Below, piece by piece: positions 759 to 3,564 of a stretch of 51,970 bases of DNA; the stretch's first letter is position 1; the number at the start of each line of letters is the position of its first letter. The stretch comes from Terriglobia bacterium. GTDB lineage: Bacteria > Acidobacteriota > Terriglobia > Acidiferrales > UBA7541. The translations under genes and the position numbers were made by a program. The notes beneath the pieces are model-generated. The model made no database searches. It was given only the letters and a program-made list of their open reading frames with translations, and had not been told where the DNA came from. The stretch spans positions 1-51,970 of the forward strand of contig JAIQGD010000022.1 in the NCBI GenBank assembly GCA_020072765.1. The letters run 5' to 3'.

Positions 759-1307
759 CTAGACGGAGTAGGAAACGCTACCGTCCTCCACGGGCCTGAC
801 TTCTTCGCTGACGGTGGCGGGAACGGACGACTTGGCGCCGCGCCGCATCGCGACGATTCCCGTCCGCACCATTTCCATCAACCCAAATGGCGCGAGCAAT
901 TCCAAAAAGCGGTCCACTTTTTCTTCGCCGCCTGTCATCTCGAGCGTAATGGATTCGGCTGCGATGTCGAGCACGCGCGCGCGGAAGACCTCGGCGAGTT
1001 GCAAAACTTGAGCTCGCGCGTCGGGAGGCGCACTCACCTTCACGAGCGACAGGTCGCGGAAAAGCGCCTGTGACCCCGTCACGTCGTCCACCAGCAACAC
1101 GTTCACCAGCTTATAGATGTTGGCGACGATGCGCGCCGCCTGGTCCTCATCGGCGTCCACCACAATCGTCATGCGCGAGACCTCGGGCTTTTCCGTGCGT
1201 CCCACGGTGAGCGAGTCAATGTTGAAGGCGCGTCGGCGGAACAGCGACACGACGCGCGAGAGCACGCCCGGCTTGTTTTCGACATAGACCATAAAAGTAT
1301 GCAGCAT
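759..1307 (-). CDS. ilvN: Acetolactate synthase regulatory (small) subunit
   Basis: This 182-residue protein is the regulatory subunit of acetohydroxyacid synthase, the first shared step of valine, leucine and isoleucine synthesis. The N-terminal ACT domain is clear (LHTFMVYVENKPGVLSRV, then FNIDSLTVG) and binds the feedback inhibitor valine in the family; a conserved C-terminal domain follows. I chose the ATG at 1307 because TAGGAG, which overlaps the ilvB stop, lies seven bases upstream and the protein then starts exactly at the ACT domain. A longer start at 1340 would overlap ilvB. The gene sits seven bases behind ilvB and is surely co-transcribed, so it falls under the attenuator upstream of ilvB. 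Confidence 0.93.
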   Translation of the reverse strand: MLHTFMVYVENKPGVLSRVVSLFRRRAFNIDSLTVGRTEKPEVSRMTIVVDADEDQAARIVANIYKLVNVLLVDDVTGSQALFRDLSLVKVSAPPDARAQVLQLAEVFRARVLDIAAESITLEMTGGEEKVDRFLELLAPFGLMEMVRTGIVAMRRGAKSSVPATVSEEVRPVEDGSVSYSV

Positions 1308-1314
1308 GGGTCTC

Positions 1315-3042
1315 CTATTCATCCGCAGCGGTCTCGACAATGGGGCTCGGCCGCCGGATCATCTCGTGCAGGGCCGAGCCGGCCGCCACCATCGGATAGA
1401 CGGTATCTTCCTGCTCGACCTGAAAATCAATCAGCACCGGCCCCTCGTGGGCCCGCGCGGCCTGCACCGCGGGGACGACGTCCGCGCGCTTCTTGATGGC
1501 CATGCTGCGGATGCCGTAGGCCTGCGCCAGTTGCGCGAAGTTCGGATTGACCAGCGGCGTGGCTTCGTAATTCCGCTCGTAGAAGAACTCCTGCCACTGG
1601 CGCACCATCCCAAGGTAGCCGTTGTTGATGATGGCGATATTCACCTTGAGATTTTCCTGCACGATGGTGGCGAGTTCGCCCATGGTCATCTGGAAGCCGC
1701 CGTCGCCGACGACCACCCAGACGTCCGCATCGGGCCGCGCCACCTTGGCTCCAATGGCGGCGGGCAGCGCAAATCCCATGGTGCCCAGGCCGCCCGAAGT
1801 GATCAGCGAGCGCGGGCGCTCGTGCTTGTAATACTGCGCCTCCCACATCTGATGCTGGCCCACGTCGGTGACGATGATGGTGTCGCGGTCGCGGGTCTCG
1901 CGCCACAGATCGTTGATGACGTGCGCGGCGTAGAGATGGCCGAGGTCGGGGAGGTTCTGGATGTCGCGGACCGCCGAATCGCCCTTCAAAACGCGGATGT
2001 GCTCGATCCACTCGTTGCGGTTCGTGGTCTCGACGCGCGGCATGAGTTCCTGGAGAATTTTCCGCAGGTCTCCCACCAGGGCGACGTCCACTTTGACGAT
2101 CTTGTTGATCTCCGCCGGATCGATCTCCACGTGGATCTTCTTGGCCTTGGGCGCGTAGTTCTTCAGGTTGCCGGTCACGCGATCGTCGAAGCGCATGCCG
2201 AACGCCAGCAGCAGGTCGGCATCCTGAATCGTCTTGTTCACCCAGGCCTCGCCGTGCATGCCCATCATGCCCAGGTTCAGGACATGGGCGGCGGGCAAGC
2301 CGCCGATCCCCAGCAGCGTCATCGCCACGGGGATGCAGGCCCGCTCGGCGAAGGTTTTCAACTCCTCCTCGGCGCCCGACTGCACCACGCCGTGTCCGGC
2401 CAGGATCACCGGCCGCTTGGCTTCGCGGATCAGTTGCAGCGCCTTTTCGTATTCCTGTTTGGCGGGCGACAGATCGGGGCGGTAACCGCGCATGCGGGGA
2501 GCCGCGGCTTCCCAATCGAACGCGCAGGAGCTTTGCTGCGCGTCCTTGGTGATATCGACCAGCACGGGACCGGGCCGGCCCGACTTCGCCACATAAAACG
2601 CCTCGCGGATGGCGGGAGCCAGTTCCTCGACGTGCGTGACCAGGTAGTTGTGCTTGGTGATGGGCAAGGTCACGCCGGTGATATCGGTTTCCTGGAACGC
2701 GTCGGAGCCCAGCAGCTTGCTGCCCACCTGCCCGGTGATGCACACGATCGGCGAAGAGTCCATCATGGCGGTGGCAATGCCGGTGACCATGTTGGTGGCG
2801 CCGGGACCCGAGGTCGCCACGGCCACACCCACGCCGCCCGTGGCGCGCGCGTAACCGTCGGCCATGTGCGTGGCGCCCTGCTCGTGGCGCACCAGAATGT
2901 GACGAATCGAGCTGTGCCGCAACGCGTCATACGCCGGCAGAATCGCGCCGCCCGGATAGCCGAAGACGGTCTTGACGCCTTCGCGCTCCAGACATTCCCA
3001 CAGAATCCGCGCTCCGGTCAGAATCGGTTTCTCACTGCCCAT
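1315..3042 (-). CDS. ilvB: Acetolactate synthase catalytic (large) subunit
   Basis: This 575-residue ThDP-dependent enzyme condenses pyruvate with pyruvate or 2-oxobutyrate. The N-terminal pyrimidine-binding domain has GYPGGAILPAYDAL and the catalytic-Glu region RHEQGATHMADGYARA. The central FAD-binding-like domain and the C-terminal ThDP/Mg site GDGGFQMTMGELAT...NNGYLGMVRQWQ follow in the usual order and length. The ATG at 3042 has GAGGAGGGGG just upstream. It is the first gene of an ilvB-ilvN pair; ilvC is not adjacent. Its 5' leader (3043-3231) holds a leader peptide and a terminator, described separately, which implies control by charged branched-chain tRNA supply. Confidence 0.96.
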   Translation of the reverse strand: MGSEKPILTGARILWECLEREGVKTVFGYPGGAILPAYDALRHSSIRHILVRHEQGATHMADGYARATGGVGVAVATSGPGATNMVTGIATAMMDSSPIVCITGQVGSKLLGSDAFQETDITGVTLPITKHNYLVTHVEELAPAIREAFYVAKSGRPGPVLVDITKDAQQSSCAFDWEAAAPRMRGYRPDLSPAKQEYEKALQLIREAKRPVILAGHGVVQSGAEEELKTFAERACIPVAMTLLGIGGLPAAHVLNLGMMGMHGEAWVNKTIQDADLLLAFGMRFDDRVTGNLKNYAPKAKKIHVEIDPAEINKIVKVDVALVGDLRKILQELMPRVETTNRNEWIEHIRVLKGDSAVRDIQNLPDLGHLYAAHVINDLWRETRDRDTIIVTDVGQHQMWEAQYYKHERPRSLITSGGLGTMGFALPAAIGAKVARPDADVWVVVGDGGFQMTMGELATIVQENLKVNIAIINNGYLGMVRQWQEFFYERNYEATPLVNPNFAQLAQAYGIRSMAIKKRADVVPAVQAARAHEGPVLIDFQVEQEDTVYPMVAAGSALHEMIRRPSPIVETAADE

Positions 3043-3063: not shown

Positions 3064-3108
3064 TAAAAATAAAACCCACCTGCCAGATGCGCTGGCCAGG
3101 TGGGTTTT
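3064..3108 (-). terminator. Attenuator terminator upstream of ilvB
   Basis: Read on the minus strand, AAAACCCACCT and AGGTGGGTTTT pair over 11 bp. One bulged G and five more pairs (GCCAG/CTGGC) follow, closing on a five-base CGCAT loop. The right arm runs into TTTTATTTTTAG. This is a strong intrinsic terminator placed 22 bases before the ilvB start, so it can only act as an attenuator. Its left arm (3092-3104) is also complementary to the end of the leader peptide frame. Confidence 0.88.
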
Positions 3109-3160
3109 GTGAGCTTTCGATTTCTCTCGCCAATCAGCTCAGTCACGCCCTCCAGGCCAA
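3092..3160 (-). promoter_or_regulatory. Antiterminator pairing in the ilvB leader
   Basis: The minus-strand segment 3160-3148 (UUGGCCUGGAGGG, leader codons 24-28) can pair with the terminator's left arm at 3104-3092 (CCCACCUGGCCAG). Eleven of 13 positions pair, counting one G-U. The two structures are mutually exclusive. A ribosome stalled on the Val codons (14-18) would leave this segment free and favour read-through. A ribosome reaching the stop at 3139 would cover it and allow termination. The pairing is seen directly; the regulatory reading is inference from classical attenuation. Confidence 0.72.
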
Positions 3161-3231
3161 GACGCGCACACGGGCCGTACTACTACGACGATTTTCCGTG
3201 GAAGTCGGCTCCGCTCTCTGTGTGGGTTCAT
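3139..3231 (-). CDS. Branched-chain leader peptide of the ilvBN operon
   Basis: This 30-residue frame starts with ATG at 3231 and ends with TGA at 3139, 31 bases before the terminator stem. Codons 14-18 (3192-3178) read ATC GTC GTA GTA GTA, giving Ile-Val-Val-Val-Val, and another Val follows at codon 21. A run of the amino acids made by the downstream enzyme is the hallmark of transcription attenuation. No strong Shine-Dalgarno is visible, which is a weakness. The peptide itself probably has no function beyond ribosome stalling. Confidence 0.8.
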   Translation of the reverse strand: MNPHRERSRLPRKIVVVVRPVCASWPGGRD

Positions 3232-3564
3232 GTGTTCGCGTCCGGCCAGCTGAGCCGGCGTATCCGCACCCTTCCTTCCGGAAGGGCTTGGAAATCTAAC
3301 TTACGCCTCGACCGCGGGCCGTGTCAAGAAGGGATTAGGGTGGACGTGCCGCCGGGGAGTGGCACGTCGGAGATTTTCCCCATGCGCGGCGTGCGGAACG
3401 CGGATTCCACCGGGGGGCACGCAGAAGGCTACAACTGTGCTGTTTCCAGACAGCGCCGCGAATTGTCCACGGTCCTAACTTGCTTTTCCGGAAGGGCATG
3501 TCCGCTTCGGTCCTTTGGAACTGGCCGTGCACTAAGACTCCCTGAGGAGAAAGCGAGGGATCTC
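3232..3564. other. Intergenic region holding the ilvBN promoter side
   Basis: No convincing gene is visible in these 333 bases. A perfect 12-base palindrome (CCTTCCGGAAGG, 3274-3285) lies just upstream of the leader peptide and could be a regulator site or hairpin. A related TTCCGGAAGGG occurs near 3486. I could not place a convincing -35/-10 pair for ilvBN. Confidence 0.4.

Follow-up and report, generated by a model that had tools for sequence, protein, structure and literature searches.

A putative valine/isoleucine attenuator upstream of ilvBN in a Terriglobia bacterium, most likely one member of a family with a shared RNA chassis and exchanged sensor codons

In the ivbL-ilvBN and trpL-type attenuators of Escherichia coli, a leader peptide containing regulatory codons precedes an antiterminator that competes with a U-tailed terminator, and the stop codon is placed so that a ribosome finishing the leader blocks the antiterminator. 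A theory of ribosome-mediated attenuation has been published (PMC1183508). The ilvB-II motif of Corynebacterium combines an Ile/Leu/Val-rich uORF before ilvB with a terminator and an antiterminator and has been tested with reporters, and the ilvB-OMG and Leptospira ilvB motifs of other phyla have been re-read as predicted uORFs that encode branched-chain amino acids (BCAA) before ilvB (PMC10272879). In Rhodobacterales, the uORFC-8-2 leader of cysS carries a Cys-codon uORF and a terminator, and attenuation by tRNA-Cys charging has been inferred for it (PMC8632094). According to Naville and Gautheret, hardly any of the predicted acidobacterial attenuators has been linked to a function (PMC2965389). 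We found no attenuator described in Acidobacteria in the open literature, as far as it was accessible; a 2010 comparative survey (Lopatovskaya and others, cited in PMC4833913) could hold some.

How does the ilvBN locus of a Terriglobia bacterium compare with these systems? We analysed a stretch of 51,970 nucleotides (the window; contig JAIQGD010000022.1 of assembly GCA_020072765.1). From computational evidence alone, with no transcript, termination or starvation data, we conclude with high confidence that the element upstream of ilvBN is a ribosome-mediated transcription attenuator sensing valine/isoleucine, and the interpretation offered by an earlier sequence-only reading is supported. The element shares with E. 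coli ivbL and trpL the leader peptide with regulatory codons, the competing antiterminator and terminator and the placement of the stop codon. It differs in that the stop codon lies within an inner antiterminator stem, in that the early RNA without a ribosome is antiterminated in simulation, and in that the ilvB, Cys and Thr operons of Terriglobia share a recognisable chassis sequence. The Corynebacterium uORF, by contrast, is short (15-17 aa) and belongs to one genus and one gene; no direct sequence comparison was made with it. The ilvB-OMG and Leptospira ilvB motifs gave no match in the window in a search of Rfam, with the caveat that the inclusion of each named motif in our copy is unconfirmed. 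The uORFC-8-2 leader is alphaproteobacterial and has its tandem Cys codons upstream of cysS, whereas the Cys runs of Acidobacteriota stand before sulfur-assimilation genes. An analogy, and no more, can be drawn with T-boxes, in which, too, a single RNA chassis serves many operons and the specificity codons can be exchanged; the T-box binds tRNA directly, whereas the reader in Terriglobia would be the translating ribosome, and no T-box match was obtained. The single ilvB element belongs to a known type of attenuator; the new part is the family, in which one chassis appears with exchanged sensor codons.

On the minus strand the order is a promoter-like pair, the leader, the U-tailed terminator, ilvB (start 3042) and ilvN (Table 1). 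The sequence-only reading had listed a 30-codon frame with Ile-Val-Val-Val-Val codons, a strong U-tailed terminator just before ilvB and an alternative pairing at 11 of 13 positions, and we recovered all three where it had placed them, the last between 3160-3148 (UUGGCCUGGAGGG) and 3104-3092 (CCCACCUGGCCAG). An ORF with at least five consecutive Ile/Val/Leu codons arose by chance in only 7 of 4000 dinucleotide shuffles. GTA supplies three of the four Val codons of the run and is absent from ilvB and ilvN, which together have 78 Val codons, and the region 3290-3060 folds with a z of -3.36. The placement of an intrinsic terminator between the leader and the first gene rests on sequence and folding only. 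A simple consensus scan flagged neither terminator nor promoter, the former having a bulged G and an A within the T tail. The promoter is an inference from a TTGACA-N17/18-TA... pattern aligned by eye in the same-genus leaders, and it would imply a 5' UTR of about 60 nt.

Table 1. Features of the ilvBN leader region (window positions) and, prefixed by C77, C81 or C44, the other elements found in the source genome.
Feature	Position	Strand	Basis or remark
Promoter-like TTGACA (3327-3322), 18-nt spacer, TAAGTT (3303-3298)	3298..3327	-	inferred; by-eye alignment
Segment 1 candidate GGCCGGACGCG	3237..3247	-	MFE fold; pairs with leader CGCGUCUUGGCC (3166-3155)
Leader peptide ORF MNPHRERSRLPRKIVVVVRPVCASWPGGRD, 30 codons, stop TGA 3141-3139	3139..3231	-	aligned leaders in 11 same-genus genomes
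Regulatory codons 14-18, Ile-Val-Val-Val-Val (ATC GTC GTA GTA GTA)	3178..3192	-	
Segment 2, antiterminator 5' arm CGCGUCUUGGCCUGGAGGG	3148..3166	-	
Antiterminator inner stem UGAGCU (3141-3136) / AGCUCA (3115-3110)	3110..3141	-	includes leader stop codon
Segment 3, terminator left arm CCCACCUGGCCAG	3092..3104	-	common to antiterminator and terminator
Intrinsic terminator: hairpin at 3108-3071, U-rich tail down to 3065	3065..3108	-	-24.7 kcal/mol
ilvB, acetolactate synthase large subunit	1315..3042	-	TIGR00118, 747.8 bits against a cut-off of 538.35
ilvN, acetolactate synthase small subunit	759..1340	-	PRK11895 and TIGR00119 above cut-offs; start codon unsettled
Cys leader MEFHTQFAACTPCCCSATAGAGVRSE	C77:3358-3467		upstream of sulfite reductase-like gene; R2
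Cys leader MRVSLVFAMLWLPNACCLCCRKTHMCASGAPGFLS	C81:44179-44286		upstream of cysD; R2
His leader MKLQAHHLHHHHANPCLRRCG	C44:20669-20770		upstream of hisI; R2

We envisage that transcription starts near 3290 and that the leader peptide is made first. When charged tRNA-Val or tRNA-Ile is scarce, the ribosome would stall at codons 14-18, leaving segment 2 (3166-3148) and the inner stem free to capture the left arm of the terminator, and RNA polymerase would read through into ilvBN. With ample amino acids the ribosome would advance to the stop codon within the inner stem and cover segment 2, so that the terminator forms. Translation of the leader, stalling, termination and a response to amino acids through tRNA charging are all inferred. 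Folding simulations, in which ribosome footprints were given assumed values, reproduce the switch geometry proposed from the sequence. In RNA ending before the 3' arm of the terminator, the antiterminator has a probability of 1.00 with a ribosome at Val15 or Val18, the same value without any ribosome, and 0.00 with a ribosome at the stop codon. In the full-length RNA at equilibrium the terminator prevails whether or not a ribosome is stalled (0.999 or more in all states), which means that the switch must be kinetic. The same dominance of a strong hairpin in the full-length fold is what one would expect of a plain intrinsic terminator, serving an upstream transcript or lying close to the promoter, next to a chance ORF and without any switch. 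We give this explanation barely any credence, since the matched codons, the position of the stop and the alternative pairing recur in many genomes and pairing is better between cognate arms than between swapped ones. Moreover, R2, a second, later covariance model of the element, finds only four sense-strand loci in the source genome, all with leaders that fit the downstream gene, so the element is not generic terminator sequence.

The attenuator is conserved among close relatives. These were gathered by searching the genus and a set of named genomes for ilvB, and then for the leader itself; the named neighbours of the source MAG are MAGs of Terriglobia / Candidatus Acidiferrales. The leader peptide and the terminator chassis are present in 11/11 same-genus genomes with a close ilvB, so that the attenuator reading escaped the refutation it had itself named, namely relatives lacking the Val run or the pairing. 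The terminator is near-identical in relatives, where the antiterminator pairing also reaches the terminator loop (GUCUC with GAGAC). Nine same-genus antiterminators were tested, and every one outperforms its dinucleotide shuffles (P 0 to 0.04). Conservation of the Val run, which the sequence-only reading had also proposed to check, holds only in part: the run is clear in most same-genus genomes, thin in L125 (SVPVALV) and L126 (DLVVGPEP), with two or three Val codons, and scattered farther away. In seven more distant MAGs the terminator and the inner stem are kept, Ile/Val/Leu codons are scattered in most of the ilvB leaders, and one (L049) has no clear leader ORF; R2, which was built without these MAGs, matches them at E 8e-10 to 3e-5. 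In other genera of the family ilvB lies behind ilvD or has a different upstream region, and the element is absent. Changes in the leader are not concentrated at third codon positions (0.227, 0.257, 0.269), and hence the codon-position test lends no support to selection on the leader peptide. Separately, genus g4 (four loci) carries a conserved GATGGGCCTGCC...CTGGGCGG stretch upstream of ilvB without a BCAA leader.

Elements of other kinds govern ilv genes in other bacteria, among them ppGpp riboswitches at ilvB (PMC10272879), and a metabolite riboswitch, a T-box or a ppGpp-type element upstream of ilvB has to be weighed. No Rfam family, T-box and, subject to the caveat on named motifs given above, ppGpp included, reaches the gathering score in the window, where the best match is to an unrelated leader at E 0.88, or in ten relatives. 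The conserved part of the alignment consists of the switch region and the ORF, with no separate aptamer-like block. A ligand- or tRNA-binding element accordingly receives next to no credence from us.

Whether the pairings of the attenuator are maintained as such was assessed by comparing true partner arms with partners dealt among 133 copies, the places found by R2 or by R1, a covariance model built from 16 ilvB leaders only; kinship among the copies limits the P values. Across these copies complementarity exceeds chance at each pairing. The antiterminator arm pairs with the terminator arm and loop at -20.28 kcal/mol for cognate against -18.14 kcal/mol for swapped partners (z -9.8), and cognate arms are likewise better for the inner stem (z -11.1) and for the 1:2 pairing (z -10.7). 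When swaps are restricted within a gene class the z values are -5.8 for antiterminator and terminator, -8.0 for the inner stem and -6.5 for 1:2. Covariation, which the earlier reading had proposed to look for in aligned leaders, is thus borne out across the 133-copy family and is not significant inside the ilvB class (n=11; permutation P 0.13 for the antiterminator, 0.52 for the inner stem and 0.066 for 1:2). Within the ilvB genus cognate and swapped arms gave no difference (P 0.48), and RNAalifold on the 16 ilvB leaders returned a covariation term near zero, with one pair showing a compensatory change. As arm swaps between species of the genus cost nothing, we claim covariation for the wider family only. 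In the window, the pairing of the segment 1 candidate could, on the predicted fold, hold segment 2 away from the antiterminator; taken alone, the 1:2 pairing of the window sequence is not distinguished from shuffles (P 0.305). Across the family the terminator-arm hexamer GCCAGA recurs within the upstream leader in 47/133 copies against 2.9 expected, giving the 1:2, 2:3, 3:4 layout of textbook attenuators.

The ilvB element is most likely one member of a Terriglobia family with a shared chassis and exchanged sensor codons. R1, which is blind to the peptide, was applied to 95 genomes from the order and found the same RNA architecture before other operons, Cys and Thr leaders included, at E down to 5.7e-10 per genome. 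In 74 of the 133 places the leader stop falls 24 nt after the UCUGGC segment, and UCUGGC, GCCAGA, CCCAC and GGUGGG are retained across leader types. The window fits this chassis, with a stop about 21-24 nt past a UCUGGC-type segment 2 and a GCCAGA/CCCAC terminator arm, in the variants UCUUGGCC and GGCCAG. Leader codons match the downstream gene. Under a fixed frame rule, at least three Cys codons are found in 80 of 95 leaders of sulfur genes (mean 4.9 Cys against 1.6 in other frames), a mean of 5.5 Thr against 0.7 in 15 leaders before aspartokinase, Asd or homoserine dehydrogenase, and a mean of 4.5 Val against 1.0 in 12 leaders before ilvB or ilvD; one ilvD leader is rich in Val/Leu/Ile. The rule misreads about a dozen leaders, and the counts are kept as it gave them; these misreadings work against the codon-content result. 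The sulfur genes behind Cys leaders are sulfite reductase-like, CysD, CysG, sulfurtransferase, CysK and transporters. Representatives were named with NCBIfam, except that transporters, rhodanese-like proteins and Asd were named by reading the sequence; several fragments, those matching sulfite reductase-like, aspartokinase, CysG, IlvD and HisI, fall below curated cut-offs and therefore carry family-level names. At five loci the Cys-leader chassis stands before OMP-like and porin-like genes (PF25183 and PF13620 at one of them), which suggests roles in sulfur-compound uptake.

Did these copies arise from one another? We lean towards a single homologous chassis copied between Acidobacteriota operons with only the sensor codons exchanged (Val/Ile, Cys, Thr, probably His, and single loci with Met/Cys and Trp/Tyr), which would make it the ribosome-read equivalent of the T-box. 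That the copies share an ancestor is likely, as inferred from sequence match without a tree. It is possible, though we doubt it, that the attenuator is real and the shared chassis reflects convergence, with no copying between operons; this concerns origin and does not exclude attenuation. The His leaders and the distant ilvB leaders share the layout while their sequence has diverged, and in other phyla unrelated sequences have arrived at this design, as convergence would predict, yet a model trained on ilvB alone would not then be expected to match Cys and Thr leaders as R1 does, nor would the four motifs and the stop spacing be kept across types.

Among the further members, the Cys and Thr versions stand before matching amino-acid genes; the His, Met and Trp versions are less secure. 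In the source genome, the four sense-strand elements that R2 reports at E up to 10 are ilvB, two Cys and one His (Table 1). For the two with the poorest scores (E 0.0027 and 0.013), the leader carries as much of the evidence as the score does. A hisI protein search across the family located His-rich or His-run leaders at 28/30 loci. Their terminators are diverged, GC-rich and different in sequence (CCCGCUGGCGCGG...), so that membership of the His leaders in the same family is probable and not demonstrated. At E <= 1e-4, R2 matches 86/299 genomes of the class (31/113 genera) and 9/198 of a phylum sample. Outside the class the matches in three genomes were read, with genes named by reading and not by profile search: the chassis carries a Met/Cys leader before a MetY-like gene in L374 and a Trp/Tyr leader before an AroF-like gene in L377, and Cys leaders were also read, one before a YeeE-like transporter. 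The regions upstream of trpE and leuA in the family contain no such leader and no chassis pattern, and no Leu leader was found. Trp matches near trpE proved to be two Trp codons in fragments of neighbouring or overlapping frames without the chassis, and were rejected.

Other layouts were seen beside the chassis. A second attenuator layout lies upstream of ilvD or ilvB at six loci, in Vicinamibacteria and others, with I/V/L-rich leaders such as MFQDQFRYLVVVVRSVGVIITPAASG and, in most, a GGCCATCATCC...GATGATGGCC terminator. I/V/L-rich leader ORFs followed by terminators unrelated to the chassis also precede ilvD in L094, L099, L086, L101, L112 (Chloroflexi-type) and in L065, L067, L073, L090 (Verrucomicrobiota) and L109. 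Since such BCAA leaders with unrelated terminators occur upstream of ilvD in Vicinamibacteria, Chloroflexi, Verrucomicrobiota and other groups, attenuation of ilv genes in itself is probably common.

What are the implications of a shared chassis for amino-acid regulation? A function is assigned to a large set of elements in Acidobacteria, a phylum abundant in soil, in which more than one pathway of amino-acid metabolism, several in fact, is probably under leader-peptide control. Should the chassis prove homologous, attenuator evolution can proceed by codon swaps within an unchanging RNA frame, as is best known from T-boxes, and the sensor would be directly testable through codon exchange.
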